Below, one piece after another: positions 5,730-18,776 of a stretch of DNA of 21,117 nucleotides; the first letter of the stretch is position 1; every line of letters starts with the position of its first letter. The stretch spans positions 1 to 21,117 of the IMG/VR virus record IMGVR_UViG_3300032677_000194. The stretch is one strand, 5' to 3'. Source of the DNA: a virus. The translations under genes were made by a program, and so were the position numbers. Below the pieces are notes generated by a model. That model worked only from the letters and a program-made list of their open reading frames with translations, did not search any database and was not told where the DNA came from.

Positions 5730-6467
5730 TTATCTTGCTGTGTAGCGTCTATCTTTACGTGGTTGGAAAATACTTGTCAAGCGATTATGTCCACCTGACC
5801 ATTTACCTTTGTTGTTCTGATCTTCAACAGTATCCCAAGCCAAGTTAAATTTGGCTAACCAACCATTGGCATCATCAGTCATTTTACGTTTTAGATAGTA
5901 GTTATGTAATGTTCCATATACATAACCTTCAGGAAATGATTGTAGTACTACGTTGTTTAAAATTGGATTACCACTTGTATCTAAACTAAACAGTTCTGGC
6001 CAAGTAGTAAAATAATACATATTGATTATTTCACCTTGACCAAGTCCTGGTAGGAATTCATAGTTCTGTCCTACTTCACTAAACTTACCACGATACACTT
6101 GCGGAATGTTTAAAGGTTTTAGATATAAGTTTTCAATCATCTGATCGCCAATCATATCGCGATCACCAATACGGTCATAAACAATCCAAGGACCAGCTGT
6201 GTTGGTTGCTCCAGCGGTAGTGCTGGTTAATCCTTGATTAAAGAATAGAATAGGTCTATTCATATCAGGTGGAATAGGAACAAAACCATTTTGGTCTGCA
6301 ATACCAAATGTATTATAAGGATTTGTACGCAATGCTGGTAGTTCAATGTTACGCATCATCATTTCAGTAAGGTAGATACATTGTTGTATCTCTTGATTAT
6401 TACTGGAACCCGTAAATGCTTGTATGTAAGAAACTAACGCTGTTGCGTCAGAAATTTGTGTGCTCAT
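5730..6467 (-). CDS. Head-tail adaptor (P22 gp4-like / connector protein)
   Basis: A protein of 245 residues that starts with MSTQISDATALVSYIQAF. The N-terminal third is helical, as in head-tail adaptor proteins that form a ring beneath the portal. The middle is rich in aromatics and Pro (PIPPDMNRPILFFNQG, GEIINMYYFTTWPELF) and the C-terminus is basic (QPRKDRRYTAR). Length and position, between capsid genes and the tail fibre, match the adaptor or tail-accessory factor of short-tailed phages. Its ATG overlaps the stop of the upstream gene as ATGA, with AAGG 9 nt upstream, so translation is probably coupled. The family call rests on overall character and gene order, not on a catalytic motif. 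A tail-completion protein is an alternative. Confidence 0.6.
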   Translation of the reverse strand: MSTQISDATALVSYIQAFTGSSNNQEIQQCIYLTEMMMRNIELPALRTNPYNTFGIADQNGFVPIPPDMNRPILFFNQGLTSTTAGATNTAGPWIVYDRIGDRDMIGDQMIENLYLKPLNIPQVYRGKFSEVGQNYEFLPGLGQGEIINMYYFTTWPELFSLDTSGNPILNNVVLQSFPEGYVYGTLHNYYLKRKMTDDANGWLAKFNLAWDTVEDQNNKGKWSGGHNRLTSIFQPRKDRRYTAR

Positions 6468-7072
6468 ACTTTATGGCCTTTAAAGAATTTATCAGAACCT
6501 ATTGGGTTAGGATAAGGTACATCAACAGGAATAGGCAATTTGCCTCCTGGGTAGCAAACAAAAGCATTAAACTCTTGTTGTACTACTTTATAAAATTGTG
6601 CTTTTAATGTCTTATCACGTTTAATAGCGGCCCAGGGCATACCACCAAAGTACTTATTACATATTTCAAATGCAATGACTTCTGGCAACTCCATCCACTT
6701 GTAGCCTAACTTGCCATCTGGCATAATAGGAGCTAATGGATCCATAAATCCTGCTTCTGCACGTTTGCGATAATCCTGACAATGTTCTAAAATTGCAGGA
6801 ATATTCATTTGTTCTTTTGTAAGATACATCTTGCCACCATCGCGACCAGTTGTTGTCTTAATGTTTTTACTTAGATTGTAACCTGTATTGGTCCAATCAC
6901 CTTTTAATTGTTTATATAGTTTATCATTTTGTAATAAACGATCAGCAATACCATTATCTGTTGTGGCTAATCCGCCTTTGTCCCAACGGTGTGCGTCTTG
7001 ATTAAACTCTGGATCAGGACCATCAAGTTCTGATTTATCGTGATAGTTAGCAAATTCATCGTATGTAGTCAT
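6464..7072 (-). CDS. Unknown structural-region protein, probably head completion/neck (leaderless start proposed)
   Basis: A protein of 202 residues starting MTTYDEFANYHDKSEL. I do not recognise the family. It is soluble with no signal peptide. The N-terminus is acidic and polar, the centre basic and helical, and the C-terminal part has many aromatics (FEICNKYFGGMPWAAIKRDK, then YKVVQQEFNAFVCYPGGKLP). The start was placed at 7072 because the longer in-frame version from 7165 would run through a terminator hairpin and the promoter. No Shine-Dalgarno precedes the ATG. Instead a CATAAATA octamer ends 5 nt before it, so the transcript should begin at or next to the ATG. It is the first gene of the adaptor-fibre block. 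A head-completion or neck role is inferred from position only. Confidence 0.7.
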   Translation of the reverse strand: MTTYDEFANYHDKSELDGPDPEFNQDAHRWDKGGLATTDNGIADRLLQNDKLYKQLKGDWTNTGYNLSKNIKTTTGRDGGKMYLTKEQMNIPAILEHCQDYRKRAEAGFMDPLAPIMPDGKLGYKWMELPEVIAFEICNKYFGGMPWAAIKRDKTLKAQFYKVVQQEFNAFVCYPGGKLPIPVDVPYPNPIGSDKFFKGHKV

Positions 7073-7077
7073 ATATC

Positions 7078-7085
7078 TATTTATG
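7078..7085 (-). promoter_or_regulatory. T4-type late promoter octamer CATAAATA (neck/fibre block)
   Basis: CATAAATA on the minus strand lies between the terminator after the capsid gene and the ATG at 7072. In T4-type late promoters the octamer covers about -13 to -6, which puts +1 on or beside the A of the ATG. It would restart transcription for the adaptor and fibre genes. Confidence 0.65.
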
Positions 7086-7091
7086 GCCAAA

Positions 7092-7118
7092 GGAAAAGGG
7101 CTCCTAAGAGCCCCTTCC
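7092..7118 (-). terminator. Intrinsic terminator after the major capsid gene
   Basis: On the minus strand GGGCTC-TTAG-GAGCCC forms a 6-bp GC-rich core that extends through G-U and A-U pairs to about 11 bp. The 3' side is TTTTCC. It lies 26 nt past the capsid stop codon and before the next late promoter, so it separates abundant capsid mRNA from the neck/fibre unit. Confidence 0.75.
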
Positions 7119-7143
7119 ATACTTGTAATTAAGTAAAACTTAA

Positions 7144-8553
7144 TTAGAAGGTTGAGTTGTCCCATGCATTGAGACGTTGTACGTATGTTGTAGAACGTAA
7201 TGAACCAGAAGCACCAGTTGATGGGTTAACACCAACGTATGTTCCGTTAGGACTAATATCGTGCAATACAGCTACGCCAGCTGGGTTACGTACGATTAAA
7301 GTACCTTCAAGGATGAACTGATCTAAACTAGCATCAGCATTACTGAATACTTCATTGTTAGGACCTAAATCACGTAAAGAGCCCCACTGGAGGACTTCCT
7401 CATTCAAGAAGTAGATCTGATTACCTACACCAACTTGATCCATAATCCAAGAATCAAAAATCTCGTAAGTGTAGTTGAAGTCGCCTTCGTATGTAGCAAT
7501 AGTATCGCCACGCTCACTATTTACGCGGTTGATGCTACGTGATGTAGGCATTGTATCGCTTAAATGTGTACGTAATGATGTTGGGCATACGATTGTGCGG
7601 ATCTTCGCATTGAAACGTTGTTCAGCTGTAGTAACTAACTGCTTGTATAAACTTGGAGCAAACTGTTGTAAGCTAGAAGTATATGAATAGTAAGAACTAC
7701 CTAAGTATTCACCGTTGTTATTGTTGCTTGCGCCACCACCAATAGTTAATACGTTTGCTGTACCTTGAGTAACTGTATCGCTACCTTCAGCATTGAAGTT
7801 TGTATAGAAACTTGCCGCTGGACTTGGGTTGAAACTGTGTGTGCCTGCGAATGCGTTCAATGAACCCATACGACGACCAGTTTGTGGACCAAATGTTGTA
7901 ACAGAACCAGAAACTGGACTTACAACAGGCTGTGAACTTACTGCCGCAAATGCACTACTTGTTTGATACTGAACGTTACCACCTTGGTCACCAGTAACGT
8001 TAGACACGAATGTCCAACCTGGAACTTGAGTAGAACTGCTGATGTTTATTACGTTACCAAATACGTTACCAGCGAAACCAGATGCAAAACCTGCTTGGCC
8101 ACTGTATTTTGTACCAATTTGGTCAGCACGTACGATTTGAGCTTCTACGTCAAACATCAATTCAATTAACTGCTTAACTTCTTGGTATGCTTGTGGATCT
8201 CCACCAGATTGTTCAACAGCACGTGCGGTACCAGTAGCACCAACAACTGTACTGAAAATCTGTGTGTAGTTACCTAAGTTGGCACGTGACTGTGATTCTA
8301 CACTAGCAGAACTAACAGCTTGACCTTCTTGGTTAGCTTGGATTTGTGGTAGACGATAAACGTCGTTTGTCCATAAAGGTAATGTAGAAACTACTTTACG
8401 CTTTTTAGCCATACACATATTTAAAACTGGGGTATCGTCTTTTACACGATTTGATACATCTAAGTCTAAGTCTTTAACAACGATATCAGTTTGGTAGTTA
8501 CCAGATGCACCATTGCCAATGACTGCGGTTGAGTTATAACCTTGAGCTGCCAT
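7144..8553 (-). CDS. Major capsid protein (DUF5309 / SU10-like HK97 fold)
   Basis: A protein of 469 residues that builds the icosahedral head. Residues about 42-70 (PVLNMCMAKKRKVVSTLPLW) and 90-145 (RANLGNYTQIFSTVV, then an Ala/Val linker and the helix EVKQLIELMFDVEAQIVRADQ) match the DUF5309 capsid pattern. So does the C-terminal third, with its IRTIVCPTSLRTHLSD, EIFDSWIMDQ and EGTLIVRNPAGVAVL segments. Residues about 150-290 are Ser/Gly/Asn-rich and could be an inserted or surface domain. It has the strongest Shine-Dalgarno in the window (AAAGGAGA, 8 nt from ATG), fitting very high expression. It follows the scaffold gene by 28 nt and is followed by a terminator. No cleaved propeptide is obvious. 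Confidence 0.9.
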   Translation of the reverse strand: MAAQGYNSTAVIGNGASGNYQTDIVVKDLDLDVSNRVKDDTPVLNMCMAKKRKVVSTLPLWTNDVYRLPQIQANQEGQAVSSASVESQSRANLGNYTQIFSTVVGATGTARAVEQSGGDPQAYQEVKQLIELMFDVEAQIVRADQIGTKYSGQAGFASGFAGNVFGNVINISSSTQVPGWTFVSNVTGDQGGNVQYQTSSAFAAVSSQPVVSPVSGSVTTFGPQTGRRMGSLNAFAGTHSFNPSPAASFYTNFNAEGSDTVTQGTANVLTIGGGASNNNNGEYLGSSYYSYTSSLQQFAPSLYKQLVTTAEQRFNAKIRTIVCPTSLRTHLSDTMPTSRSINRVNSERGDTIATYEGDFNYTYEIFDSWIMDQVGVGNQIYFLNEEVLQWGSLRDLGPNNEVFSNADASLDQFILEGTLIVRNPAGVAVLHDISPNGTYVGVNPSTGASGSLRSTTYVQRLNAWDNSTF

Positions 8554-8581
8554 AATATTTCTCCTTTAATTTGGCTTTGTT

Positions 8582-9766
8582 TTATCTACGCTTGGCTCTG
8601 ATGTTACTCAGATGTGCCAATAATAAATTATCTGCGGCTTTTATATCGCCGCCCCTGGCTTTTTCACGAAGGCTTTCAACTTGACTCTTTTGATTACCTG
8701 AAGGAATGGAACTTGCGGTCTTACGTGTAGTTAATGCGGCAATACTATTGCCAGCACCTTTAGCTTTGGGACGGTCACGATATTTTAAACCATCTCGTAT
8801 CAAGGATAAGATATGCTCATCACTTGTTACAAGGTCTATATTATTTACGCCAGGAACCAATTGATTCTTAGCCGCTCCCCAACCCTTACTTACCTTGTCA
8901 CGAACTTCTTCATAGATAGCACTATTACGCAATTCCTTATCTTGGAATGACTTTCTATTGCTATCAAGAATCTCGCGAACTTGATTACTACGTAACTGGT
9001 AAAACTGTTCCAGATTAGGCTTTAGACGATTGATTGTGCCACCAATTTGTTGTAGGTAACGATCATTCTGTTGCATATTAGCCTGTATCTGAGCCTGTTG
9101 TACAGGATCTTGAGTACGTGCTAACTGTTCTCTAAAGGTATTCTGATACTGCTGTACCTTAATCACTTCATCATACGCCTTTTGTAACTGTGGGCGTACA
9201 GTGAATTCCATTGCCAACATAAGTCCATCTTGTTCAGCTTTCTTATTGGTGAGATACTCATCAAATTCAGCTTTTTGAATCTTAAGTTGTCTTGCTTCTT
9301 CGCTAATTGCGGCACCTTGGCCTAATATGGCGGCGGCTTTCTTTGCATCTATTTCAATTTCTTTACCATTACGCATAAACTTAAATTTAGCGTTAGGGTT
9401 AGTTTCTGCAAACTCCAAGAAATCAATAACTTCTGCTTTAGACGAATCTGGTTCGCTTACCTCTTCAGGGGCTACTCCTTCTTCGTTGCCATCTTCATCA
9501 TACTCTGCTTCTAGTCCTGCAACTTCTGGCTCATTCAAATTGGTATCGTTCTCAGGAACTTCTTCCTGGATCTCTACACCTTTAGGTGCCACAGGGGCTT
9601 CTGCGTTTGCCTCATCAGAAGAACCTGTCCCAGCGGGTATGGTAGCTTGAACTTGGTTACGCATCGCGGCCATTTTCTGTGCTATTGCATCCAGTCCCAC
9701 ACTGGCTTCTTTGACAGGGACCGTGTCTACGACGACATTAGGTATATCATTAACAACTGTATCCAT
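8582..9766 (-). CDS. Scaffolding protein (capsid assembly)
   Basis: A protein of 394 residues encoded immediately before the capsid gene, the usual scaffold position. The first 120 residues are acidic and probably disordered (EEVPENDTNLNEPEVAGLEA, EEGVAPEEVSEPDSS). Residues about 150-290 are Gln/Glu/Lys-rich helices with coiled-coil character. The C-terminus is basic (KSQVESLREKARGGD to NIRAKRR), as in scaffolds whose basic tail docks onto the capsid protein. AAAAGGAG lies 8 nt before the ATG, and the gene follows the upstream one by 17 nt. No protease catalytic residues were recognised, so scaffold is preferred over a fused protease. The call rests on composition and position. Confidence 0.75.
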   Translation of the reverse strand: MDTVVNDIPNVVVDTVPVKEASVGLDAIAQKMAAMRNQVQATIPAGTGSSDEANAEAPVAPKGVEIQEEVPENDTNLNEPEVAGLEAEYDEDGNEEGVAPEEVSEPDSSKAEVIDFLEFAETNPNAKFKFMRNGKEIEIDAKKAAAILGQGAAISEEARQLKIQKAEFDEYLTNKKAEQDGLMLAMEFTVRPQLQKAYDEVIKVQQYQNTFREQLARTQDPVQQAQIQANMQQNDRYLQQIGGTINRLKPNLEQFYQLRSNQVREILDSNRKSFQDKELRNSAIYEEVRDKVSKGWGAAKNQLVPGVNNIDLVTSDEHILSLIRDGLKYRDRPKAKGAGNSIAALTTRKTASSIPSGNQKSQVESLREKARGGDIKAADNLLLAHLSNIRAKRR

Positions 9767-9783
9767 TGGATACTCCTTTTATG

Positions 9784-10143
9784 TTACGCTATGGGGTCTT
9801 CAGCGGCCAATTGACCTGTCTGTTGACTTACCACGCGGTTCTTAAAGTAAACCGCACGTTTAAGCGATTTAACGAACTCATCTACACCTGTGAGCTGGTT
9901 GCTAAGAGCAACTCTCAGGCTGTTATCTTCCTCGCTATGTCCTGCAATATCTGTTAGGACATCCAAACGTTCAAACTTGAACGTATGAACAAAGTATGCG
10001 AACTCTTTGTTCTTCAATAAATTCTCTGCTTGACTGCCCATATCTTTAACACGGTCCAGCTGTGCTGGTGTCATTGACTTAATATTGTTAAGATCAACAG
10101 TCATGCGTTTATTAAACGCTTCTACAACGTCATTTTCAATCAT
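9784..10143 (-). CDS. Small helical protein between portal and scaffold
   Basis: A protein of 119 residues with no recognised family. It appears wholly helical (TPAQLDRVKDMGSQAENLLK, then EFVKSLKRAVYFKNRVV) and ends in a short polar tail. It lacks a signal peptide or membrane segment. AGGA lies 6 nt before the ATG and a CATAAATA promoter lies 22 nt upstream, so it heads a scaffold-capsid transcript. Small helical proteins at this position in short-tailed phages often take part in head assembly, but that role is inferred here. Confidence 0.75.
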   Translation of the reverse strand: MIENDVVEAFNKRMTVDLNNIKSMTPAQLDRVKDMGSQAENLLKNKEFAYFVHTFKFERLDVLTDIAGHSEEDNSLRVALSNQLTGVDEFVKSLKRAVYFKNRVVSQQTGQLAAEDPIA

Positions 10144-10165
10144 TTCATTTCCTATCCAGTAAATC

Positions 10166-10173
10166 TATTTATG
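10166..10173 (-). promoter_or_regulatory. T4-type late promoter octamer CATAAATA (scaffold/capsid block)
   Basis: The octamer starts two bases after the portal stop codon. Predicted +1 is near 10160, giving a short leader of about 17 nt that contains the AGGA ribosome site of the gene at 10143. Confidence 0.7.
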
Positions 10174-10175
10174 CG

Positions 10176-12476
10176 TTAAAAAGCACGAGCCTTATGTTCG
10201 CCTAATAAAGCTACACCTTCTAATTGACGTTTAGCATCATTGCCGTTGATATCAGCAATAATCTCTTGAGCACGTGCTTGATCCAACTGTGCGCCTGCTT
10301 TGTCTTTAAGATCTTTAGCAGGAGGATTAGCTTGTGCGGCTTTTTGTGCGGCTTGTGCTTTTTGTTCTGCTTGTTGCGCCATTGCGGTAACTTCATCCAT
10401 TGTCAATAGGTATGCGTCAGCATCTTTAACACCTAATGTATAAAGCATATCTTCATATGGTTTACGCATCTTCTTAAACAATTCTGGAGTACCAGCACCC
10501 ATTTGAACAGCTTGTGCTACTTCAGCATTTAATTGTGTTTGTGCTTGTTTAATAATCTGACTACGTTGCAAACTGTTTTCTTCTGACTTCATACCTAATG
10601 CCAAGTCAATGTGAATAGTTTTACGATCATTAAAATCCATATTGTCAAATGATTCACCATCTAAGAATATGGCTTTCTTTTCTGGATTATATTCTTTGGC
10701 CAACTTCTTAACACCATAGTCATCAGCGTGTGCAACTAATGTACGCCATACTAACCAAATAGCATCTTTCAAGCCTTCAGCACAGTTTTTAACTGTATTG
10801 TCTTGAATAATTTGGTTAGGACTTAGAGCTAAGTTTAACTTTGCTCCTGAATTACCTGGATCCATAATTTCTGGATTGAATACATCTTGCGGACTTGTCA
10901 TACCAGTCATTGCCATACCATCATTCTGCATACGTTGTAGCGTATTGTCTAAGAATGTTGGATTACCTTGTGGTGTAGGCATTGCATAGATATCTGTTGC
11001 TGGATTAAACTTACTGTCCAAGATAAAGATTGCGGCTTCACCGTCTTGTATTTCTTCAAAGTCTACTTTATCTGGTTTAACACCAATACGTGGGGTTGAT
11101 TGTAGCAAGCCCATCATTAACTCTGCACGATAACCAGAGGTCATATACTCTTGCATAGGAGTTACTGATTCAGCAATACTCATACCATAGAAGTTTTGTG
11201 GTAATGGCTTTGGACACATATTGGCTACAGGAATAAATTCTACTTCGCGAGCACTAATAACATACTGTCCTGAATAGATTAGTTCAACAAGTTCCAACTC
11301 GCCATCGCCGTCAATATCATAGCGATTCCATACAGTAAGAACAGTAACTTGACGTGCTTCTGGTTCTTGTGCGGAATATCCTTGCGCTGGGAGTCCATTA
11401 ATAGGCACACTATCACGAGCATGAATGGCCAAGTTATTGAGTAAGCTACCAGCCTGATAAGAGCCCACGTTTGAGTATTCAGCATAGATCTTAAACTCCT
11501 CCAGATCAATGTCTGGATACAATTCAGTTGCTTCTTGAATACTCATTGGTTTGTAGAAACCGCAGAATGGTTGATCTTGTACTTCAATAACAGTTGGATC
11601 ACACATCCAATAGTGTTGTGCAATAGGACGGAACTTAATGTTTAATGTATAACCAGTAAGTTTGTACTCTGCATCATAGATAGTGTTACGTGCAATAGCT
11701 TCATCTAATGCATCTTCACCATTTTGTAGTTGTAAATTGTTTTCTTGTGCAAAATCTTCTGTAGGATCTTGTGCTGTATCGCCTTTGGCAATAGCACGGC
11801 TACGATCAATACGTGCTTGTATTTGTTGTTCAGCTTGTGCTTGATCCGTTGATTGTAGGAACTGTTGTGTCTCTGCAACTACCTTAGCCATATCTACTGA
11901 TTTCTTACGGCGACTATTACGTTTGGCTGTTAGACCTTGTTCTTCAGCTTGTTGTTCAAAGGCTTTAAGTTGGTCTAATGTACCTGTAGTAGTTACATAG
12001 CGTACAACTTGCTCACGCATTGGGCTGATTAGCATTTCGCCATTCTTGTGTAGACAAGCATCCATTACCCAATGTTGTAGAATAAAGTGCGGATCATTGT
12101 TTTGATTAATCAACTTGTGTACCATATTGGTAGCTTGACGTGCCGCGGCTTCGTCATCTTCGTTATCTGCAACGAATTCAAAGTTAATCTCGCCATTCTG
12201 TGCCATACCTTTAACAATTACACTAGTAGCGTAATCTACAGTAGGTTTAACTACAGGGTGGATATAGTCTAAACCGTTTACAGGTTCAGTTGACTGTGTC
12301 ATTGCTAATACAAGGTAATGATAATCGCTTGTACGGTTAATGTTGTTCTTGGTAGCTAACAAACGTAAGTTTGCCGCACACTTTTGATCCAACAAGCTCT
12401 TCATTTTTACAAAACGAGCCAATGAGCCAGTGTTTGTGTTTAGATTGCTAACAACTACGTTTTTTAAATCCAACAT
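10176..12476 (-). CDS. Portal protein (P22-type)
   Basis: A protein of 766 residues that would form the dodecameric DNA channel at the capsid vertex. Its length is close to the 725 residues of P22 portal. The N-terminal 130 residues are helical and contain YIHPVVKPTVDYATSVIVKG (71-90). The middle holds mixed wing/clip regions with many acidic segments, including the DIDGDGELELVELIYSGQY stretch. The C-terminal 90 residues are Ala/Gln-rich long helices (AMAQQAEQKAQAAQKAAQ), as in the barrel extension of P22-like portals. It lies directly after the large terminase and before the scaffold and capsid genes, the canonical order. AAAGG lies 10 nt before the ATG, and a CATAAATA promoter separates it from the terminase gene. 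Confidence 0.9.
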   Translation of the reverse strand: MLDLKNVVVSNLNTNTGSLARFVKMKSLLDQKCAANLRLLATKNNINRTSDYHYLVLAMTQSTEPVNGLDYIHPVVKPTVDYATSVIVKGMAQNGEINFEFVADNEDDEAAARQATNMVHKLINQNNDPHFILQHWVMDACLHKNGEMLISPMREQVVRYVTTTGTLDQLKAFEQQAEEQGLTAKRNSRRKKSVDMAKVVAETQQFLQSTDQAQAEQQIQARIDRSRAIAKGDTAQDPTEDFAQENNLQLQNGEDALDEAIARNTIYDAEYKLTGYTLNIKFRPIAQHYWMCDPTVIEVQDQPFCGFYKPMSIQEATELYPDIDLEEFKIYAEYSNVGSYQAGSLLNNLAIHARDSVPINGLPAQGYSAQEPEARQVTVLTVWNRYDIDGDGELELVELIYSGQYVISAREVEFIPVANMCPKPLPQNFYGMSIAESVTPMQEYMTSGYRAELMMGLLQSTPRIGVKPDKVDFEEIQDGEAAIFILDSKFNPATDIYAMPTPQGNPTFLDNTLQRMQNDGMAMTGMTSPQDVFNPEIMDPGNSGAKLNLALSPNQIIQDNTVKNCAEGLKDAIWLVWRTLVAHADDYGVKKLAKEYNPEKKAIFLDGESFDNMDFNDRKTIHIDLALGMKSEENSLQRSQIIKQAQTQLNAEVAQAVQMGAGTPELFKKMRKPYEDMLYTLGVKDADAYLLTMDEVTAMAQQAEQKAQAAQKAAQANPPAKDLKDKAGAQLDQARAQEIIADINGNDAKRQLEGVALLGEHKARAF

Positions 12477-12501
12477 TATTAAATACCTTTGTTTATTTTA
12501 T

Positions 12502-12509
12502 TATTTATG
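12502..12509 (-). promoter_or_regulatory. T4-type late promoter octamer CATAAATA (portal)
   Basis: Located two bases after the terminase stop codon, as GGCATAAATAATAAA on the minus strand. Predicted +1 is near 12496, about 20 nt before the portal ATG, and the leader carries the portal ribosome site. Confidence 0.7.
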
Positions 12510-12511
12510 CC

Positions 12512-14137
12512 CTACTCATCAGCAGAGTAAGTGCGTTTCCAAGCAGGACGGTCTGCTGTGTTTTGCTGTAGTTTGCGTACACGCATATTGTGTGCGGCAT
12601 CGCGGAATCGTTGTTGCGGACTACGGTTATCCCACTCTTCTGCCCAGCCATTTAAGCACCCAAGCAATGCGTAACGAGCAGAATCAATACAGTCATCTGG
12701 ATCACTAAACCTGCCCTTGTCATCCACATAATAGTTTTGAGCTTCTCTAAGAAATTCAACACAGTTTTCATTGACGTGAAAAGTCCCCATTTCAAGCATT
12801 TGACGCATTACGTTAATACCAAACGCTTTATGATTAGTAGTACGTCCTTGATCATCAGGCGGATTGTGTATTGGCTCTGGATATACGTTTAATTCGTATT
12901 GTTCAAATAGCTGTCTAATACTTAGTGCTGACATAGTATAGCGGCCTACGGTTCCCGCATCAGGTGGTAAGACAATAGGACATCCAAACACTTCAGGACG
13001 CATTAGATTTTGTATGTAGTTGATAGGATTGGCCTCTTCTGTGCCCTTGACTACTATTTGGCGATCTAACCAAGCTTCAGATCCATTAGGATCCCAGTAT
13101 ATAAGACTAAGCACGGTCTTGTCATTAACAAGTCCCAAGTCCAATGCGATAAGACGTAGTAGACCACTAGTATTGCGGAAATCATAAGTCCCGTTTTTAT
13201 AAGTAGGCCAGTTTCTAATTTGGAAAACAGCTCCTTTACCCATAACAGGAACACCATTGCGACGAGCATCTCGCTCATGTGGGAGATAATCTCGTTCAAG
13301 TTGTAACCTCGTAGAATTTAATAAGAATGGTTCGCCCCAAGGATCGTATTCAGGTACATCATCCCAGCTGACACGAATATGCTCATAACCTTCTTCATGA
13401 TGCCAGAACTTTGATACTAATCCGTTAAGTCCTTTGAGTGGGGTAAACGAACACAGTACTTGTCCTTGTGTAGTAGCTGTTCGCGTAACAATCTCACTGA
13501 AAAAGTCATCTGGCGGTTGCTCATCAAAAACGGCCAGGTTGAGTTTGAAACCCTGCATCTGTCTAACTTCCTGTGTATAGTTAGCAAACAACAAATAACT
13601 TTTACTACCAGATATGTGGCGTATTTCAACGCCAATACAATTAGCGCCATCGCTTCGCATAGTTTCCGTAATAATACAATCACGGGGTATAGCACCAGTG
13701 CCAATATGGTCTCGTATCTTAACATCGTTAGTTCCTAATAGTTCATTTTGTAATACAAGTGCAACCTGACTCCAGCCCTCACCAGCTACCATAGCTGTTA
13801 CAGGTTTATCAAAGCGACGTCCCGTCCACCATTCAGGATACCTACCAGTTAGGTGCATGGCTGTTTCATAACAGGTACTTACTGTTTTTCCAATACGGTT
13901 TGCAGCCAGGATACCACGACGATCACTTGAACCAGTGGCAAAGAAATCAAGTTGATGTTTAAATGGACGAAAGTATTTGAGTTGATTGTATTCCATATCG
14001 TCGCGAATGGAAATACCCAGCTCTTGAAAATGCATTTTTATTGATCCAGTATAATTAACTACATCATTGATAGGTATTTTATGTTGATCACAGACATAAC
14101 GTACTGCACGACGCATTAATACTGCTGGATCTAACAT
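12512..14137 (-). CDS. terL: Terminase large subunit (packaging ATPase and nuclease)
   Basis: A protein of 541 residues that drives DNA into the prohead and cuts it. A Walker A variant, AANRIGKT, lies at residues 78-85. Walker B LAVFDEQ is at 201-207 with catalytic Asp-Glu at 205-206, and a SFTPL coupling motif is at 230-234. The RNase-H-like nuclease domain shows ALDLG (Asp333), PPDAG (Asp393) and SDPDDCIDSARYALL (Asp481-Asp485), giving the usual acidic triad. All key motifs are present and the length is normal. The ATG follows the stop codon of the upstream helical protein without any gap. The AAGGA ribosome site lies inside that upstream gene, so the two are translationally coupled. Confidence 0.95.
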   Translation of the reverse strand: MLDPAVLMRRAVRYVCDQHKIPINDVVNYTGSIKMHFQELGISIRDDMEYNQLKYFRPFKHQLDFFATGSSDRRGILAANRIGKTVSTCYETAMHLTGRYPEWWTGRRFDKPVTAMVAGEGWSQVALVLQNELLGTNDVKIRDHIGTGAIPRDCIITETMRSDGANCIGVEIRHISGSKSYLLFANYTQEVRQMQGFKLNLAVFDEQPPDDFFSEIVTRTATTQGQVLCSFTPLKGLNGLVSKFWHHEEGYEHIRVSWDDVPEYDPWGEPFLLNSTRLQLERDYLPHERDARRNGVPVMGKGAVFQIRNWPTYKNGTYDFRNTSGLLRLIALDLGLVNDKTVLSLIYWDPNGSEAWLDRQIVVKGTEEANPINYIQNLMRPEVFGCPIVLPPDAGTVGRYTMSALSIRQLFEQYELNVYPEPIHNPPDDQGRTTNHKAFGINVMRQMLEMGTFHVNENCVEFLREAQNYYVDDKGRFSDPDDCIDSARYALLGCLNGWAEEWDNRSPQQRFRDAAHNMRVRKLQQNTADRPAWKRTYSADE

Positions 14138-14434
14138 TTAGAATCCTTTAAGGATAGTGTCTAATAACTGTGCTGTCTGAGCAAGGTCGCGTAGCTCCTG
14201 CGTTGACATACGCCAAGTGTCAGGATCCGCTACATCGCAACTATCACGCTTGTCCAAACCAGCTTGCAAGCGTTCCATAGTTAAGCGTAGGCAATGCTGT
14301 ACTTGTCCAGGATACTTTAACATAAAAGCATCACGATGTACAGCATTTACCTTTTGCAAGATTTTAGTATCAGCTACTAACTTGGCCTGTTGTTGGCGAT
14401 CACGTTCAGCATCAAAGCCAGGTGCATTTACCAT
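14138..14434 (-). CDS. Small helical protein fused in position to terL (possible terminase small subunit)
   Basis: A protein of 98 residues starting MVNAPGFDAERDRQQQ. The start at ATG 14434 overlaps the upstream stop as TAATG. A TTG start 12 nt earlier is possible but less likely. The protein is mostly helical and charged, ending DTWRMSTQELRDLAQTAQLL. It carries no GARPGAGR motif. Direct abutment to terL is the classic location of the small terminase subunit, which recognises the packaging site. The protein encoded at 18383-18763 competes for that assignment. Its role is therefore open. Confidence 0.75.
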   Translation of the reverse strand: MVNAPGFDAERDRQQQAKLVADTKILQKVNAVHRDAFMLKYPGQVQHCLRLTMERLQAGLDKRDSCDVADPDTWRMSTQELRDLAQTAQLLDTILKGF

Positions 14435-15159
14435 TAGACATTCCAAGGATTGTCAAGTGCTTGTGCGGCATCGCCACCAATAACGAAATCACGATCAATC
14501 CAAGTTTCCCACTGTGATTTATTACCAATTTTCATCTTGGTCATAAAGTTTTTTAAGCGTGTGCCAATAGGAGTAATACGTCCATCCGCATAGCGAATGA
14601 TTTGTTCGCCTGTGCGTGGATCAACCCATACAAACTTGTCTGGTACATCCTTACCATATTTGTTTACACGATTACCAATGGCACGTTGAGCCATGGGGCC
14701 AATGATTTCATAGGTAATGGTATTGTCAATATACTTACGGAAGATTACTGAACACTTTTGTCCCATAGCACTCCATTCTGGATCTGGATGTGGGAATGTA
14801 TCAGCTTGGAAGAATGTAACTGGCTTGTGGCCAAAGATTTCCTTAGGCTGTGGTGGTAATGTTTTTAATGGATCAACAGGAACAATATCGTTCTTGTCCA
14901 TATAAGGATTTTCACCACCAATAAGTTCTGCGGGTGGCATTAGACCATTAAGTGTATCCAGGGCAATCTGATACTTGACCTTGTTGCTACGACCTTTTAG
15001 ATTTAATACCACGCCAGTTTGATCATAGACAAACTTTTGTAGTTCGCCAGCCGTAGGGAAGTCTGACATTAGGCCTTCTAAGTCAAATCCTAAATCTACT
15101 GGTTCTTTTGTTACGGGTTCCGCGAATGCGGGTGCTAGAGTTTTTGTTTCTCGTTTCAT
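14434..15159 (-). CDS. Unknown protein of the terminase block
   Basis: A protein of 241 residues that I do not recognise. Residues 1-40 look disordered. Residues about 35-80 resemble a small helical DNA- or protein-binding unit (FPTAGELQKFVYDQTGVVL, then SNKVKYQIALDTLNGL). The remainder is mixed alpha/beta with Pro-rich linkers, and a QIIRYADGRITPIG turn lies near the end. No signal peptide, transmembrane helix or catalytic motif was found. Start and stop both overlap neighbours as TAATG, so it is locked into a coupled array with the gene before it and with the helical gene and terL after it. A DNA-packaging or head role is inferred from that arrangement only. Confidence 0.8.
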   Translation of the reverse strand: MKRETKTLAPAFAEPVTKEPVDLGFDLEGLMSDFPTAGELQKFVYDQTGVVLNLKGRSNKVKYQIALDTLNGLMPPAELIGGENPYMDKNDIVPVDPLKTLPPQPKEIFGHKPVTFFQADTFPHPDPEWSAMGQKCSVIFRKYIDNTITYEIIGPMAQRAIGNRVNKYGKDVPDKFVWVDPRTGEQIIRYADGRITPIGTRLKNFMTKMKIGNKSQWETWIDRDFVIGGDAAQALDNPWNV

Positions 15160-15563
15160 TACAGTTCCATTCCTTTTTTAATATTTGCTTGTTCTCTTAC
15201 TTCTGAATAATCATTTGGTGCATCATTAACAGTAATAAGATTTGCTTTTTGTTCCATTGCACGGCGACGTTCATCACGATCTTCATTATAAGCAATTCTT
15301 ACACGCCAGAAATCTACTTCATTTTTATCTGAATCAATTTGTTCTTGTAAATATTTGCGTGTGCGATCAAGACTTGGGCCATTTTGTATATTAAGTTCAT
15401 CTTTAATAATGGGCACTGGTTCTGTACCAGCATAAGCGTGATTACGCAATGCAATCAGCTGATTCAGTTCTTGTAATAATGGACGGATCTGACGACGCTT
15501 GATCCAATTTGGAGTGCACCAAGATATGATGCCTGATACTAGTTCTACCACAGTGGGATTCAT
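15159..15563 (-). CDS. Unknown charged helical protein of the terminase block
   Basis: A protein of 134 residues starting MNPTVVELVSGIISWCTPNW. The start at 15563 is chosen because AAAGGTAAGGA precedes it. The longer frame from 15608 would begin inside a hairpin. The N-terminal 25 residues are moderately hydrophobic (VVELVSGIISWC) and could be an amphipathic or membrane-touching helix. The rest is charged and helical (RTRKYLQEQIDSDKNEVDFW, then RDERRRAMEQ). No family was recognised. It is the first gene after the 15592-15612 hairpin and the TTAAAGTATAAT element. Confidence 0.75.
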   Translation of the reverse strand: MNPTVVELVSGIISWCTPNWIKRRQIRPLLQELNQLIALRNHAYAGTEPVPIIKDELNIQNGPSLDRTRKYLQEQIDSDKNEVDFWRVRIAYNEDRDERRRAMEQKANLITVNDAPNDYSEVREQANIKKGMEL

Positions 15564-15591
15564 TTCCTTACCTTTCAATAAAATAAAATAT

Positions 15592-15612
15592 GAGTGTGTT
15601 AAGGACACACTC
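15592..15612 (-). terminator. Hairpin with T-rich 3' flank (terminator-like or 5'-leader hairpin)
   Basis: On the minus strand GAGTGTGT-CCTTA-ACACACTC gives an 8-bp stem, followed by ATATTTTATTTTATTG. The T tract is interrupted, so termination would be partial. It sits between the gene ending at 15676 and the ATG at 15563. Confidence 0.6.
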
Positions 15613-15638
15613 TAAACCTTTATAGAAGTATTATTGTT

Positions 15639-15650
15639 ATTATACTTTAA
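15639..15650 (-). promoter_or_regulatory. Promoter-like TTAAAGTATAAT element
   Basis: This 12-mer on the minus strand matches the TTAATGTATAAT core of the duplicated accessory-region element at 11 of 12 positions and contains a perfect TATAAT. No good -35 box is visible. If active, its transcript would start near 15632 and carry the 15592-15612 hairpin in its leader. Confidence 0.35.
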
Positions 15651-15675
15651 TACTTATTACTACGGAGTTTACAAG

Positions 15676-16032
15676 TTAATCTTTGTACTTAGTCTTACGA
15701 GCTGTGAAGCGACGGATTTGACTATTAGCTTCAATCTGACCTGACTCAGGGACTTCGTGTTCGCCTGGATTAGCTTCTAACTCTGCGGCACGTCCTGCAA
15801 ATGCACGTTCAATCATATCTGCTAATGGCTTACGTTCCTCTTTCTGATCTAAGAAGTTGCCACGTTTGGCCTTGTGTGCACCTTCCATACCTACACGTGG
15901 TCCTTGTGCTACATTGACGTTGTCACGTGCATAGGGATTGCGACTAAATTTGGTACGCTCATCAGCGGTATCTCTACGATCTGATTCAACTTCTTTTAGA
16001 ATACGTACTTTACCTAATTGTTCTTTTGACAT
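15676..16032 (-). CDS. Small highly charged protein of unknown function
   Basis: A protein of 118 residues starting MSKEQLGKVRILKEVESDRR. Arg, Lys and Glu are abundant and hydrophobic residues scarce, so it is probably largely disordered or helical (NFLDQKEERKPLADMIERAF in the centre). The C-terminus is basic (QIRRFTARKTKYKD). AAGG lies 8 nt before the ATG. It is the last gene of the small-protein array. No family was recognised. Binding to nucleic acid or to the virion interior is possible from the charge pattern. Confidence 0.7.
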   Translation of the reverse strand: MSKEQLGKVRILKEVESDRRDTADERTKFSRNPYARDNVNVAQGPRVGMEGAHKAKRGNFLDQKEERKPLADMIERAFAGRAAELEANPGEHEVPESGQIEANSQIRRFTARKTKYKD

Positions 16033-16046
16033 AGTATTAACCTTAA

Positions 16047-16238
16047 TTATTTCTTATGGTGAAACGACTTTAAGGTCTCTGCAAGGTGAGCACGACGAGC
16101 TTCAACGCCACCCTTACGCTCTGCGGCCTTAAGTTTCTTCTCTGGAATTGGTTCTCCAGCTTTAACGTGTAGTTCTTTGTGTAGGATACCAGGATGCTTA
16201 ATAGCGCCCGCGATCCATTGTTTGCCTTTGGTAATCAT
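16047..16238 (-). CDS. Small basic protein with KHPGxLHKEL motif
   Basis: A protein of 63 residues, about one third Lys, Arg or His, starting MITKGKQWIAGAIKHPGILH. It contains GEPIPEKKLKAAERKGG and ends in LAETLKSFHHKK. From memory, short proteins of this pattern (GAI-KKPG-ALHKEL, then IPAKKL, then RANLAETL) recur in phages of aquatic bacteria and have no assigned function. GGAA lies 6 nt before the ATG, and the gene follows the beta-rich protein by 9 nt. Confidence 0.75.
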   Translation of the reverse strand: MITKGKQWIAGAIKHPGILHKELHVKAGEPIPEKKLKAAERKGGVEARRAHLAETLKSFHHKK

Positions 16239-16247
16239 AATAGTTCC

Positions 16248-16598
16248 TTATGCTACTGGTGTAATATGTACTGTAGCTGTACCTGTAACAGCATTGGCTG
16301 CCACAGTAATGTTACTATCAAATGCACCAGGTACGCCAACTTGAATAATCTTACTTGAATTATTCTGAATGGTAATGCCAGACTGTGGCGTACCAGCTGT
16401 GGGTACTGTGGCTGTTACTGTGCCAGCTGTTAACGACCAATTAACAAATACATCATTAGTAGTGTCTAAGTTTTCAACAAGGATACTTTGGATATTGTTT
16501 GCGCCAGCTGTAACATAAGTCTGTGCTGACGTTGTAGAGGCCGTTATGGCAAATGTTGGACCCAATGGGAAAACGTTTGTGCTTGTACTTAATGACAT
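16248..16598 (-). CDS. Small beta-rich protein, possible head decoration/fibre protein
   Basis: A protein of 116 residues rich in Thr, Ala, Val and Ser, with almost no Lys, Arg or His in contrast to its neighbours. Alternating patterns (TFAITASTTSAQTYVTAG, SILVENLDTTNDVFVNWSL, ATVHITP) suggest a compact beta-sandwich like small capsid-surface or fibre-associated proteins. There is no signal peptide. The ATG overlaps the upstream stop as TAATG. The decoration role is inferred from composition and the structural neighbourhood. Confidence 0.75.
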   Translation of the reverse strand: MSLSTSTNVFPLGPTFAITASTTSAQTYVTAGANNIQSILVENLDTTNDVFVNWSLTAGTVTATVPTAGTPQSGITIQNNSSKIIQVGVPGAFDSNITVAANAVTGTATVHITPVA

Positions 16599-16996
16599 TA
16601 TCTTTCAGCCTTAGTAATATAAATCTTATCAGGATTGCTAACGTGTGGACGCTTACCGTGTGCTTCAATGGGATGACCTTCTTTGGCTGTAGCGATAGTA
16701 TAACGTTCAGGATCCTTGGTCGCTGATGGACCAATACGTTCCATACGGTCTGTATGACAGTCAGACGCATTGCCTTTTATGGTTTTGTTACCATAGTTTT
16801 CTTTAGCTACAAGGCCACTGTGGTTGCCAGCTAAACGATGTGTCTTCTCACTACGGTTAACGCCATCGCCCATTTGTCCGTTAAAGGCAAAGTCTGCACC
16901 ATCGCCTGCTTGATCACGACGACGTGGCTCGTGTGTTGTTCCTTCATTCTTATGTATTGTGTTGCTAGGCTTGCGAGCCAATGTTGTATTCTTCAT
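16598..16996 (-). CDS. Small basic, disordered protein of unknown function
   Basis: A protein of 132 residues starting MKNTTLARKPSNTIHKNEGT. It is rich in Lys, Arg, His, Asn and Gly with few hydrophobic residues and no predicted core. FAFNGQMGDGVNRSEKTHRL and NYGNKTIKGNASDCHTDRM resemble repeated polar turns. The start lies 5 nt after the stop of the upstream gene, whose last codons supply the AAGGA ribosome site. It belongs to the run of charged proteins between 15676 and 17971, likely virion or genome-associated (inference). Confidence 0.7.
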   Translation of the reverse strand: MKNTTLARKPSNTIHKNEGTTHEPRRRDQAGDGADFAFNGQMGDGVNRSEKTHRLAGNHSGLVAKENYGNKTIKGNASDCHTDRMERIGPSATKDPERYTIATAKEGHPIEAHGKRPHVSNPDKIYITKAER

Positions 16997-17001
16997 TTAG
17001 A

Positions 17002-17301
17002 TTACATTCCTTTTAATTTGCGTACAGCGTGGTGATCATCTTCGTGTTTGCGACCATCAATATGCTTTTCATTCTTAGGATGACTATGGCGTGTTTGCAT
17101 AGCTGGATTCTCTGGGTGATGTACTGCACGTTCAACACCCGCCATATCAGCCGCCGCTTCGTGTGCTTCTGACATACGTGGACCATCAATACGGCCAGAC
17201 ATTGTCTTTGTACGTTCAGCACGTTCCGCTTCACTACCTTGTTTCATTACCATACTAGTTGGGTTAAGGTTGTATGTACCTTTTAAATGTTTAGCGGCCA
17301 T
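17002..17301 (-). CDS. Small His-rich protein of unknown function
   Basis: A protein of 99 residues. The N-terminal half (HLKGTYNLNPTSMVMKQGS, then AERAERTKTM) is basic. The second half is His-rich (AVHHPENPAM, RHSHPKNEKH, KHEDDHHAVRK). There is no signal peptide or transmembrane segment. The ATG overlaps the upstream His-rich gene as TAATG. Clustered His and acidic residues could bind metal, but no defined site is seen. Confidence 0.7.
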   Translation of the reverse strand: MAAKHLKGTYNLNPTSMVMKQGSEAERAERTKTMSGRIDGPRMSEAHEAAADMAGVERAVHHPENPAMQTRHSHPKNEKHIDGRKHEDDHHAVRKLKGM

Positions 17302-17630
17302 TATAGCTTGTGTCCTTTTTCTGTCATGTCTTCTGCACTCTCAGGTGCGTGTTCTGATTTGTGTGCCTTGGTGCTCATGCCCATAACTTCTGTTGGGCGT
17401 ACTTCTTCACCTGCCGTGTGCTCGTGATAGTGACTACTACGCTTAGAGCTATGGTCACTATGGTGTGCGTGTTCTTTATGCTTAGGAGCATGATGACGCT
17501 TGCTGGATTCAGCTTCATGCTTCTCACTGTATGCAATAGCAACTGCTTGCTTCTGTGGCTTGCCCGCTTGCATTTCAGTAGCTACATTCTTACCAAATGC
17601 TTTAGGACTTGTACTCTTAATTAATGGCAT
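17301..17630 (-). CDS. DUF6496-like small protein with His-rich tail
   Basis: A protein of 109 residues. Residues 1-40 (MPLIKSTSPKAFGKNVATEM, then QAGKPQKQAVAIAYSEKHE) match the pattern I recall for DUF6496-type proteins common in phages and bacteria. The remaining 70 residues are an extension unusually rich in His, Lys and Ser. This includes HSDHSSKRSSHYHEHTAG, which resembles a segment of the gene at 17663. It is the first gene after a CATAAATA promoter, with AAGG 10-11 nt before the ATG. The function of the family is not known to me. Confidence 0.75.
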   Translation of the reverse strand: MPLIKSTSPKAFGKNVATEMQAGKPQKQAVAIAYSEKHEAESSKRHHAPKHKEHAHHSDHSSKRSSHYHEHTAGEEVRPTEVMGMSTKAHKSEHAPESAEDMTEKGHKL

Positions 17631-17654
17631 TGTGTCTTAACCTTGTTATAAGTT

Positions 17655-17662
17655 TATTTATG
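17655..17662 (-). promoter_or_regulatory. T4-type late promoter octamer CATAAATA (small virion-protein block)
   Basis: The octamer begins immediately after the TAA stop of the gene at 17663. Predicted +1 is near 17649, leaving a leader of about 19 nt with an AAGG ribosome site for the ATG at 17630. Confidence 0.7.
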
Positions 17663-17971
17663 TTAGTTAGCAAGCCCAGGGAAACTGCGTACACCAGGAT
17701 TGGCTGTTGTTGGATTTAGCTTGGCTATGGCTTTGTCACCAAACTGTCCTGTCGCTGTTGTGCCAACAACTGTTTCTTTATAGTGCTTGCTACGATGTTC
17801 ACTGTGCTTGCTATGGTGTTCAAAGTTGTCAATGCTTGCTGGTGTTTGTTTATGTTTGGGCTGTGGCGACTCTACAAAGCCGTTGCCCTCTTTGGGATTG
17901 GCTGTACTTGTGCCGCTAGGCTTGTGGGTCTTAGCTAATGTCTCACGTAGTGGTTTTACTTGTGCTGTCAT
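17663..17971 (-). CDS. Small disordered, His/Lys-containing protein
   Basis: A protein of 102 residues starting MTAQVKPLRETLAKTHKPSG. It is Pro/Thr/Ser/Lys-rich and probably disordered. The central HHSKHSEHRSKHYKET segment resembles one in the protein encoded at 17301-17630, suggesting shared ancestry of that piece. The start is one base after the upstream stop, with AGGA inside the upstream gene. No family was recognised. Confidence 0.7.
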   Translation of the reverse strand: MTAQVKPLRETLAKTHKPSGTSTANPKEGNGFVESPQPKHKQTPASIDNFEHHSKHSEHRSKHYKETVVGTTATGQFGDKAIAKLNPTTANPGVRSFPGLAN

Positions 17972-17972
17972 G

Positions 17973-18386
17973 TTATTGTCCTATATTTGGACCAAATATA
18001 GGACCATTTGGATTAACCATTGTAGCGCCATACTGAGCTGAGCCCATTTGGCTACCACTACCAGGATTAGCCATAGTAGCGCCGTATTGTGCCATTACTG
18101 GTCCTGGCACTACTGGCGCATTGTATGCAGGTATCTGATCACTCTGTGCCACAGGGCTCGTGGGTGCTACTGCACCTGAACTAAACGTGCTCTGTCCTTG
18201 TACAGGATTCAAGCTCCCATTCTGTGGCTGTGCGGGTTGTATGGGATTAGGTTGTCCAAAGCTATTGTTAAACTGGCCTATAGTTGGTTGATTATAGTTA
18301 GGCACCATACCTTGCTGGCTTATGGCACCGCTTACATTAGCTTCACCTAACCCTGGGTTTGCACCGTTTAGTTTACCTTGACTCAT
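17973..18386 (-). CDS. Low-complexity Asn/Gln/Pro/Gly-rich protein with internal repeat
   Basis: A protein of 137 residues with almost no charged residues, dominated by Asn, Gln, Pro, Gly, Ala and Ser. AQYGATM(A/V)NP occurs twice in the last 45 residues, and QPNPIQPAQPQ is typical of extended disordered chains. The start overlaps the stop of the small-terminase-like gene as ATGA, so the two are coupled. It could be a linker or a virion-associated disordered protein. No function can be assigned. Confidence 0.7.
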   Translation of the reverse strand: MSQGKLNGANPGLGEANVSGAISQQGMVPNYNQPTIGQFNNSFGQPNPIQPAQPQNGSLNPVQGQSTFSSGAVAPTSPVAQSDQIPAYNAPVVPGPVMAQYGATMANPGSGSQMGSAQYGATMVNPNGPIFGPNIGQ

Positions 18387-18763
18387 TGTTTACCTTTGTT
18401 GTCCACGGTAGACAGGCTCTTTAACGCTTCTGCGAAAGCTTCAGCCTTTTGAGCCGTGGTGTCTTCTGAAGTAATAGTTTCTATTTCTTGTTTGTCAGCT
18501 ACTAACTTACCTAAGAGAATCTTTTCATAATCGCGCACACCAGCGTGGTCATCACGTTGAATAGCTGTGGCATAACTGATAGCTACACGTTCAGCAAAGG
18601 TCATTCCAACGTGGGTTTCTATATGGCCCATTAGATCTTCTAAGGTGATCTTATTGGTACTACCTTTCTTACGCCCTGCGCCTGGACGTGCACCACCTCT
18701 TGATGGTGTCTTAACCTTGTAGCGAGGCGTGTTTGCGGACTTTACTTTAACTGTATTAGACAT
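18383..18763 (-). CDS. Terminase small subunit-like protein
   Basis: A protein of 126 residues starting MSNTVKVKSANTPRYKVKT. It contains GGARPGAGRKKGSTNKITLE at about residues 23-42, the Gly/Arg-rich entry motif common at the N-terminus of phage small terminase subunits. Helices follow (DLMGHIETHVGMTFAERVAI, then YEKILLGKLVADKQ), with a polar C-terminus. In such proteins this part binds DNA at the packaging site. The start at 18763 is chosen because a CATAAATA octamer ends 5 nt before it. The longer frame from 18838 has only a weak ribosome site and would encode the promoter region. It is unusual that four kilobases separate it from terL. Confidence 0.7.
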   Translation of the reverse strand: MSNTVKVKSANTPRYKVKTPSRGGARPGAGRKKGSTNKITLEDLMGHIETHVGMTFAERVAISYATAIQRDDHAGVRDYEKILLGKLVADKQEIETITSEDTTAQKAEAFAEALKSLSTVDNKGKQ

Positions 18764-18768
18764 AATGA

Positions 18769-18776
18769 TATTTATG
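18769..18776 (-). promoter_or_regulatory. T4-type late promoter octamer CATAAATA (terS-like block, leaderless)
   Basis: On the minus strand the octamer is followed by TCATT and then the ATG of the small-terminase-like gene. The spacing is identical to that at 7078-7085 and puts predicted +1 on the start codon. Confidence 0.65.

Follow-up and report, generated by a model that had tools for sequence, protein, structure and literature searches.

Introduction

Late promoters of the T4 type have been associated with gp55 and with the replisome of T4. In T4, they consist of an 8-bp TATA box placed about one turn upstream of the transcription start, with an AT-rich segment downstream (PMC2988020); the T4 octamer TATAAATA covers positions -13 to -6, and the Aeromonas phage Aeh1 has CTAAATA at -12 (PMC1524935). 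Throughout the T4 group (T4, RB69, KVP40 and the cyanophages S-PM2 and Syn9), the late element is ATAAATA with a variable first base, no -35 and AT-rich downstream DNA, and these gp55/gp33/gp45-dependent promoters lie before virion genes and start about 6 nt past the element. Another kind of system is that of phiEco32, SU10 and 7-11, small phages whose late genes depend on one -10-like element with a start 6-8 nt downstream, and which encode an ECF-like sigma; here the element is tAATGTAtA (or GTAAtg-16-aCTA), the SU10 promoters being of the tAATGTATA type (PMC4281155).

Here we describe elements of the first kind in a 21,117-bp viral contig (IMG/VR record IMGVR_UViG_3300032677_000194; hereafter the window), which alone makes up its record and is a fragment of a genome.

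Results

A sequence-only reading of the window had reported five identical octamers, CATAAATA, all on the coding strand and at gene boundaries, and had taken them for T4-type late promoters. The five copies are indeed present (18769-18776, 17655-17662, 12502-12509, 10166-10173 and 7078-7085). All are on the minus strand, which encodes nearly every gene in the window, none is on the other strand, and each has the ATG of an ORF of 60 aa or more no further than 30 nt downstream. Their contexts are also as described: the copy at 17662 stands straight after a TAA, those at 12509 and 10173 lie 2 nt past a TAG and a TAA, respectively, that at 7085 follows a hairpin and T-run, and that at 18776 comes 31 nt after a TAG. 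A search of the window for NATAAATA gave no further instance. The number of octamers is modest (5 versus 2.05 expected, sd 1.27), and the count by itself was set aside as proof because one of 100 shuffles also reached five. Their significance comes from placement before ATGs: among the 158 8-mers with at least five coding-strand copies in the window, CATAAATA is the sole one found before ATGs in 100% of its copies, the next reaching 60%. From 18776 down to 7085, the distances to the ATG are 5, 24, 25, 22 and 5 nt, and the two outermost sites share a feature that had gone unreported, exactly 5 nt separating the octamer from the ATG.

The features described next are all on the minus strand. The octamer at 18769-18776 (5-nt spacer; the +1 predicted at 18763 falls on the A of the start codon, giving a leaderless message) precedes a terminase-small-subunit-like gene (18383-18763) with an RPGAGRKKGS motif and weak PHROG hits, upstream of the packaging and head genes. 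That at 17655-17662 (predicted +1 17649) would leave about 19 nt of leader, including an AAGG, ahead of the ATG at 17630 of a small conserved gene (17301-17630; phrog_2423). Behind the terminase large subunit (12512-14137; phrog_2, phrog_31467), the octamer at 12502-12509 (predicted +1 12496) would give a leader of about 20 nt to the ATG at 12476 of the portal gene (10176-12476; phrog_1216, E 4e-29). The copy at 10166-10173 (predicted +1 10160, leader about 17 nt) heads the head operon, with a first gene of 119 aa (9784-10143), an acidic protein (8582-9766; no PHROG hit) that is scaffold-like by its position before the capsid gene, and the major head protein (7144-8553; phrog_1328, E 1.5e-20). 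An intrinsic-terminator-like hairpin and T-run (7093-7118; 50-nt fold, MFE -19.7 kcal/mol, z -3.1) ends this operon. Right behind it, the octamer at 7078-7085 (5-nt spacer; predicted +1 7072, again the A of an ATG and leaderless) stands before the first gene of the tail-side operon (6464-7072; about 202 aa, conserved start MTT/MNEF...), which is followed by a virion structural protein (5730-6467; phrog_2941, E 1e-8).

Portal, capsid and TerL belong to other PHROGs than those of T4, matching non-T4 phages, and the earlier reading had already held portal, adaptor and capsid not to be T4-like; no T4-type head or packaging genes place the window among the T4-like phages (Straboviridae, Kyanoviridae). 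The accompanying label 'P22/SU10-like' is right in a loose sense, the PHROG hits being to portal, major head protein and TerL families and the best named relatives being MW202484 and short-tailed Pseudomonas and Vibrio phages of 44-51 kb. Elsewhere in the window, a promoter-like module GTAAAAAGACRACAGACCA...TTAATGTATAAT occurs in two copies (20393-20388 and 20082-20077, minus strand, plus some 40 nt of upstream sequence in each case); both precede small early genes, and the core of the module resembles the phiEco32 tAATGTAtA element.

Relatives were collected from IMG/VR, mostly as partial contigs: the terminase yielded 54 loci, and the capsid yielded 222, of which 80 were kept. Of these relatives, 37 whole records were taken, most of which were read. 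One locus (L001) overlaps the window at 99.93% identity and adds 2.1 kb. Seven records, of 33.9-36.7 kb, have identical contig ends (99-127 nt), and we infer from these repeats, which have the length of an assembler overlap, that they are circularly closed complete genomes. The window's clade is one of widespread small lake and freshwater phages of 34-37 kb. Two longer records, G020 (54,495 bp) and G021 (50,398 bp), contain two copies of the head region, about 82% identical and 35 kb apart; each is probably a chimera in which the assembly joined two strains with a circular genome of 35 kb. No tRNAs were found in the relatives, and a search of GTDB genomes with the capsid for a host gave no match.

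Across the relatives, the motif takes the more general form (A/C)TAAATA. When the 7-mers preceding 649 genes were ranked without bias, TAAATAA, ATAAATA and CTAAATA were all within the top four words, with Shine-Dalgarno words mixed in lower down; ATAAATA occurred 61 times versus 0.42 expected and CTAAATA 54 times versus 0.72. Opposite strands and coding bodies served as controls. The possibility raised at the outset that such words are equally common inside genes does not hold, [AC]TAAATA being concentrated in non-coding DNA (0.835 per kb and strand) and scarce within genes (0.069 in sense and 0.031 in antisense orientation), and non-redundant sites numbered 170 on the coding strand versus 24 on the other. 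The junctions orthologous to those of the window carry NTAAATA in 26/27 (18776), 24/27 (17662), 56/61 (12509), 55/58 (10173) and 48/48 (7085) non-redundant cases; on their other strand, these stretches have it in 4, 0, 1, 0 and 0. The element upstream of virion genes is thus of the (T/N)ATAAATA or CTAAATA form. In the divergent GNAT/HNH gap of relatives (e.g. G003, 15054-15130), (A/C)TAAATA is present on both strands in divergent orientation; another divergent gap, between the helical and zinc genes, contains the palindrome TGTAAATATTTACA.

The spacing of these sites follows the T4 rule. T4 TATAAATA spans -13 to -6, and therefore +1 would be the sixth base past the motif, which here is often the A of ATG: this base is A in 64% of the 170 non-redundant coding-strand sites, and an ATG begins exactly 5 nt after the motif in 32 of them, neighbouring offsets having 1-8 each. 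The base profile of the same sites has no -35 signal and is AT-rich downstream, as in T4 late promoters (PMC2988020). We infer a transcription start about 6 nt past the element from the 5-nt ATG spacing and the A at the sixth base. The distance to the ATG is bimodal, either 5 nt or about 19-27 nt, the long class having its own AAGG-type ribosome site. The short spacing is conserved at the orthologues of junction 18776 (15 of 27) and of junction 7085 (5 nt in 27/48, 4 nt in 17/48). At the latter, a hairpin terminator lies just upstream of the motif in 31/48 cases, with 25 distinct stem-loops among them (shuffled control, 0.15). It is therefore improbable that transcripts reading through from upstream bring a leader, and we predict a leaderless mRNA here. 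More generally, the conservation of the 5-nt spacing and an ATG there far above chance predict leaderless mRNAs. In the T4 genome, used as a control, 32 TATAAATA were found with A as the sixth base in 17 and G in 9, and leaderless-type spacing occurred at 1 of the 32.

On these sequence grounds, the five sites and their counterparts in relatives are very probably promoters. The name T4-type late promoter is well supported, since the pattern matches the late promoters of both T4 (ATAAATA) and Aeh1 (CTAAATA), and the original reading of them as such in a non-T4 background gains from their conservation throughout the clade and from the T4 spacing rule.

The nearest sister clade consists of MW202484 (Manatee Spring) and its relatives of about 40 kb (portal 45%, TerL 53% and capsid 62% identical), and differs in that MW202484 carries erf, SSB, rusA and cro genes. 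Neither ATAAATA nor CTAAATA was found upstream of its genes (0/694). The promoter system is therefore clade-specific, either gained in the window's clade or lost in the sister. In the sister loci (L200-L243), AAGTGAG is strongly enriched upstream of genes (40 versus 0.38 expected).

Several relatives have zero-mismatch TTGACA-N17-TATAAT promoters in their early, non-structural region, and in several genomes the GNAT operon has such or similar elements and (A/C)TAAATA standing in tandem. This suggests two classes of promoters, a presumably early one read by host sigma and a dedicated, presumably late one. In four genomes (G020 at 34132, G022 at 22136, G023 at 36348 and G028 at 30524), the perfect sigma70 promoter is followed by a conserved leader around ACATTGTTAAACATTAAGGAGGCTTACAATG, which varies slightly between genomes and precedes different small genes.

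The proposal of a gp55-like sigma encoded by the phage, with late transcription linked to the sliding clamp, found no support. None of 19 phage records matched the gp55 family phrog_234 (T4 control, 2.5e-70), the apparently complete relatives included; a seven-phage gp55 profile, run unfiltered on all relatives in six frames (29,578 segments), gave a best E of 6.5, and profile-profile comparison of gp55 with the core families of the clade was negative. No gp55-family sigma was thus found in the seven end-matched relatives or in many partial ones, the window being itself a fragment. Searches of the relatives found no Sigma70 region 2 (Sigma70_r2; PF04542), no phiEco32 gp36 (best E 0.58), no gp33 and no DNA polymerase; no clamp family is among the Pfam and PHROG matches listed for them; and the apparently complete relatives of 34-37 kb have no recognisable polymerase, helicase, primase or integrase. 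A set of 119 non-structural ORFs compared with Pfam and PHROGs yielded ferritin/Dps, GroES, tail-fibre assembly chaperones, HNH, methyltransferases and glycosyltransferases, and no expected replication or transcription proteins among the 25 commonest families listed; the gene caller for this set missed some small genes, and clusters were redone with all ORFs of at least 40 aa.

The non-structural core, present in 11/11 genomes, comprises an HNH protein with a C-terminal HTH, Dps-like, GroES and GNAT-like proteins, a 67-aa protein and a helical protein of 80-102 aa, none of them an obvious sigma or transcription-factor look-alike. The GNAT gene is the sole one of these shared with the sister genome MW202484, from which the HNH, Dps-like, GroES, 67-aa and helical genes are missing. 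For the best all-helical candidate (102 aa), the AlphaFold model (pLDDT 76) had no PDB match. In all 11 long relatives, the Dps/ferritin-like and GroES-like genes are conserved and adjoin the tail genes of a 35 kb phage. Some relatives encode a protein of 515-524 aa with a TVHDC motif (L021, 1153-2700; L020, 1929-3464; L157, 13183-14757), which by eye is suggestive of a single-subunit (family A or T7-like) polymerase; this candidate (P524) was set aside, its model being too poor for use (pLDDT 40) and no Pfam, PDB or phage match having been found.

Discussion

The probable promoters of the window's clade share with those of the T4 group the ATAAATA core with its variable first base, the lack of a -35, the AT-rich downstream DNA and the position before virion genes; a start about 6 nt past the element is predicted for them as well. 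They differ in their setting, a genome of 34-37 kb with virion genes that are not T4-like and in which neither gp55 nor gp33 was found, and in the greater frequency of predicted leaderless starts (32/170 sites versus 1/32 in T4). The second variant in the window's relatives, CTAAATA, is the element that Aeh1 has at -12; unlike Aeh1, which has its own diverged gp55, the clade mixes the A and C variants within one genome. In placing small-phage late genes under one -10-like element with a predicted start a few nucleotides downstream, the clade also resembles phiEco32, SU10 and 7-11, but its late element is not tAATGTAtA and no ECF-like sigma of the gp36 type was found.

A motif so T4-like would have a true gp55, the phage's own or a borrowed one, as its simplest reader. 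We nevertheless lean towards a reading in which the host RNA polymerase, together with a clade-specific phage factor that is not a recognisable gp55, reads (A/C)TAAATA. The late promoter would be this -10-like element, covering roughly -12 to -6 and lacking a -35, and transcription would begin from the A six nucleotides past it, which at two sites of the window would be the A of the ATG. The five octamers would head five late units, the terminator ending the head unit and the tail unit restarting right behind it. With the early genes of relatives under near-perfect host sigma70 promoters, an early phage product would redirect the host RNA polymerase to (A/C)TAAATA in an ordinary early-to-late switch, and the likeliest candidate for the reader would be one of the small core proteins specific to the clade.

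The main rival, which we regard as unlikely, is that these phages are virion-complete satellites, which build their own virions and borrow gp55, gp33 and gp45 from a co-infecting T4-like phage. It would fit the use of both promoter variants of T4-like phages (ATAAATA and CTAAATA), the great abundance of T4-like gp55 genes in the same collection, and the apparently complete genomes in which gp55, gp33 and replication genes are not recognisable. Several observations argue against it, and for a factor of the clade's own. The relatives possess strong host-type early promoters. The core accessory genes that were searched also gave no link between T4-like phages and the clade: it alone yielded the 67-aa and W.FNG/EFA proteins, GroES matches were weak and scattered, and the Dps-like protein had one cyanophage match, at 28%. 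Finally, HTVC106P, a SAR11 isolate of 36.9 kb, was obtained on its host and has no annotated replication genes, so that the absence of such genes is no proof of dependence.

Improbable to a greater degree is a gp55 encoded by the clade and too diverged for profiles. Motif, spacing and missing -35 are exactly gp55-like, and gp55 itself varies strongly (T4 versus cyanophage and phiM12, 32-37% identity), but even the unfiltered six-frame search came no closer than the E of 6.5 given above. Among core genes of about 150-200 aa, moreover, the Dps-like one alone is left unassigned, the others being an HNH endonuclease and the GNAT-like protein, an assignment made partly by eye, which is also present in the motif-free sister clade. 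We are equally doubtful that a host alternative sigma, or host sigma70, reads the element: it resembles a -10 and phages often use host holoenzymes, but the same genomes have perfect TTGACA-N17-TATAAT promoters elsewhere, the motif sites lack a -35 and the sigma70 -10 pattern, and near relatives in the sister clade do not use the element. That the motif is no promoter at all and acts as a translation or RNA-processing signal is hardly credible; it does lie almost always near start codons, but its bimodal distance to the ATG, the separate AAGG-type ribosome site of the long class and its occurrence at unit starts only, just behind a stop codon or terminator, and in divergent gaps on both strands, argue otherwise.

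A clade-specific factor acting with the host RNA polymerase thus remains the reading we favour, although dependence on a T4-like helper, if true, would be the more striking result. The same promoter grammar is fixed in an unrelated clade of small phages in which no gp55 was recognised, and this would mean a second reader protein, borrowed promoters or a gp55 beyond recognition. The conserved leaderless starts, for their part, would provide a natural set of late leaderless mRNAs whose first base is predictable.
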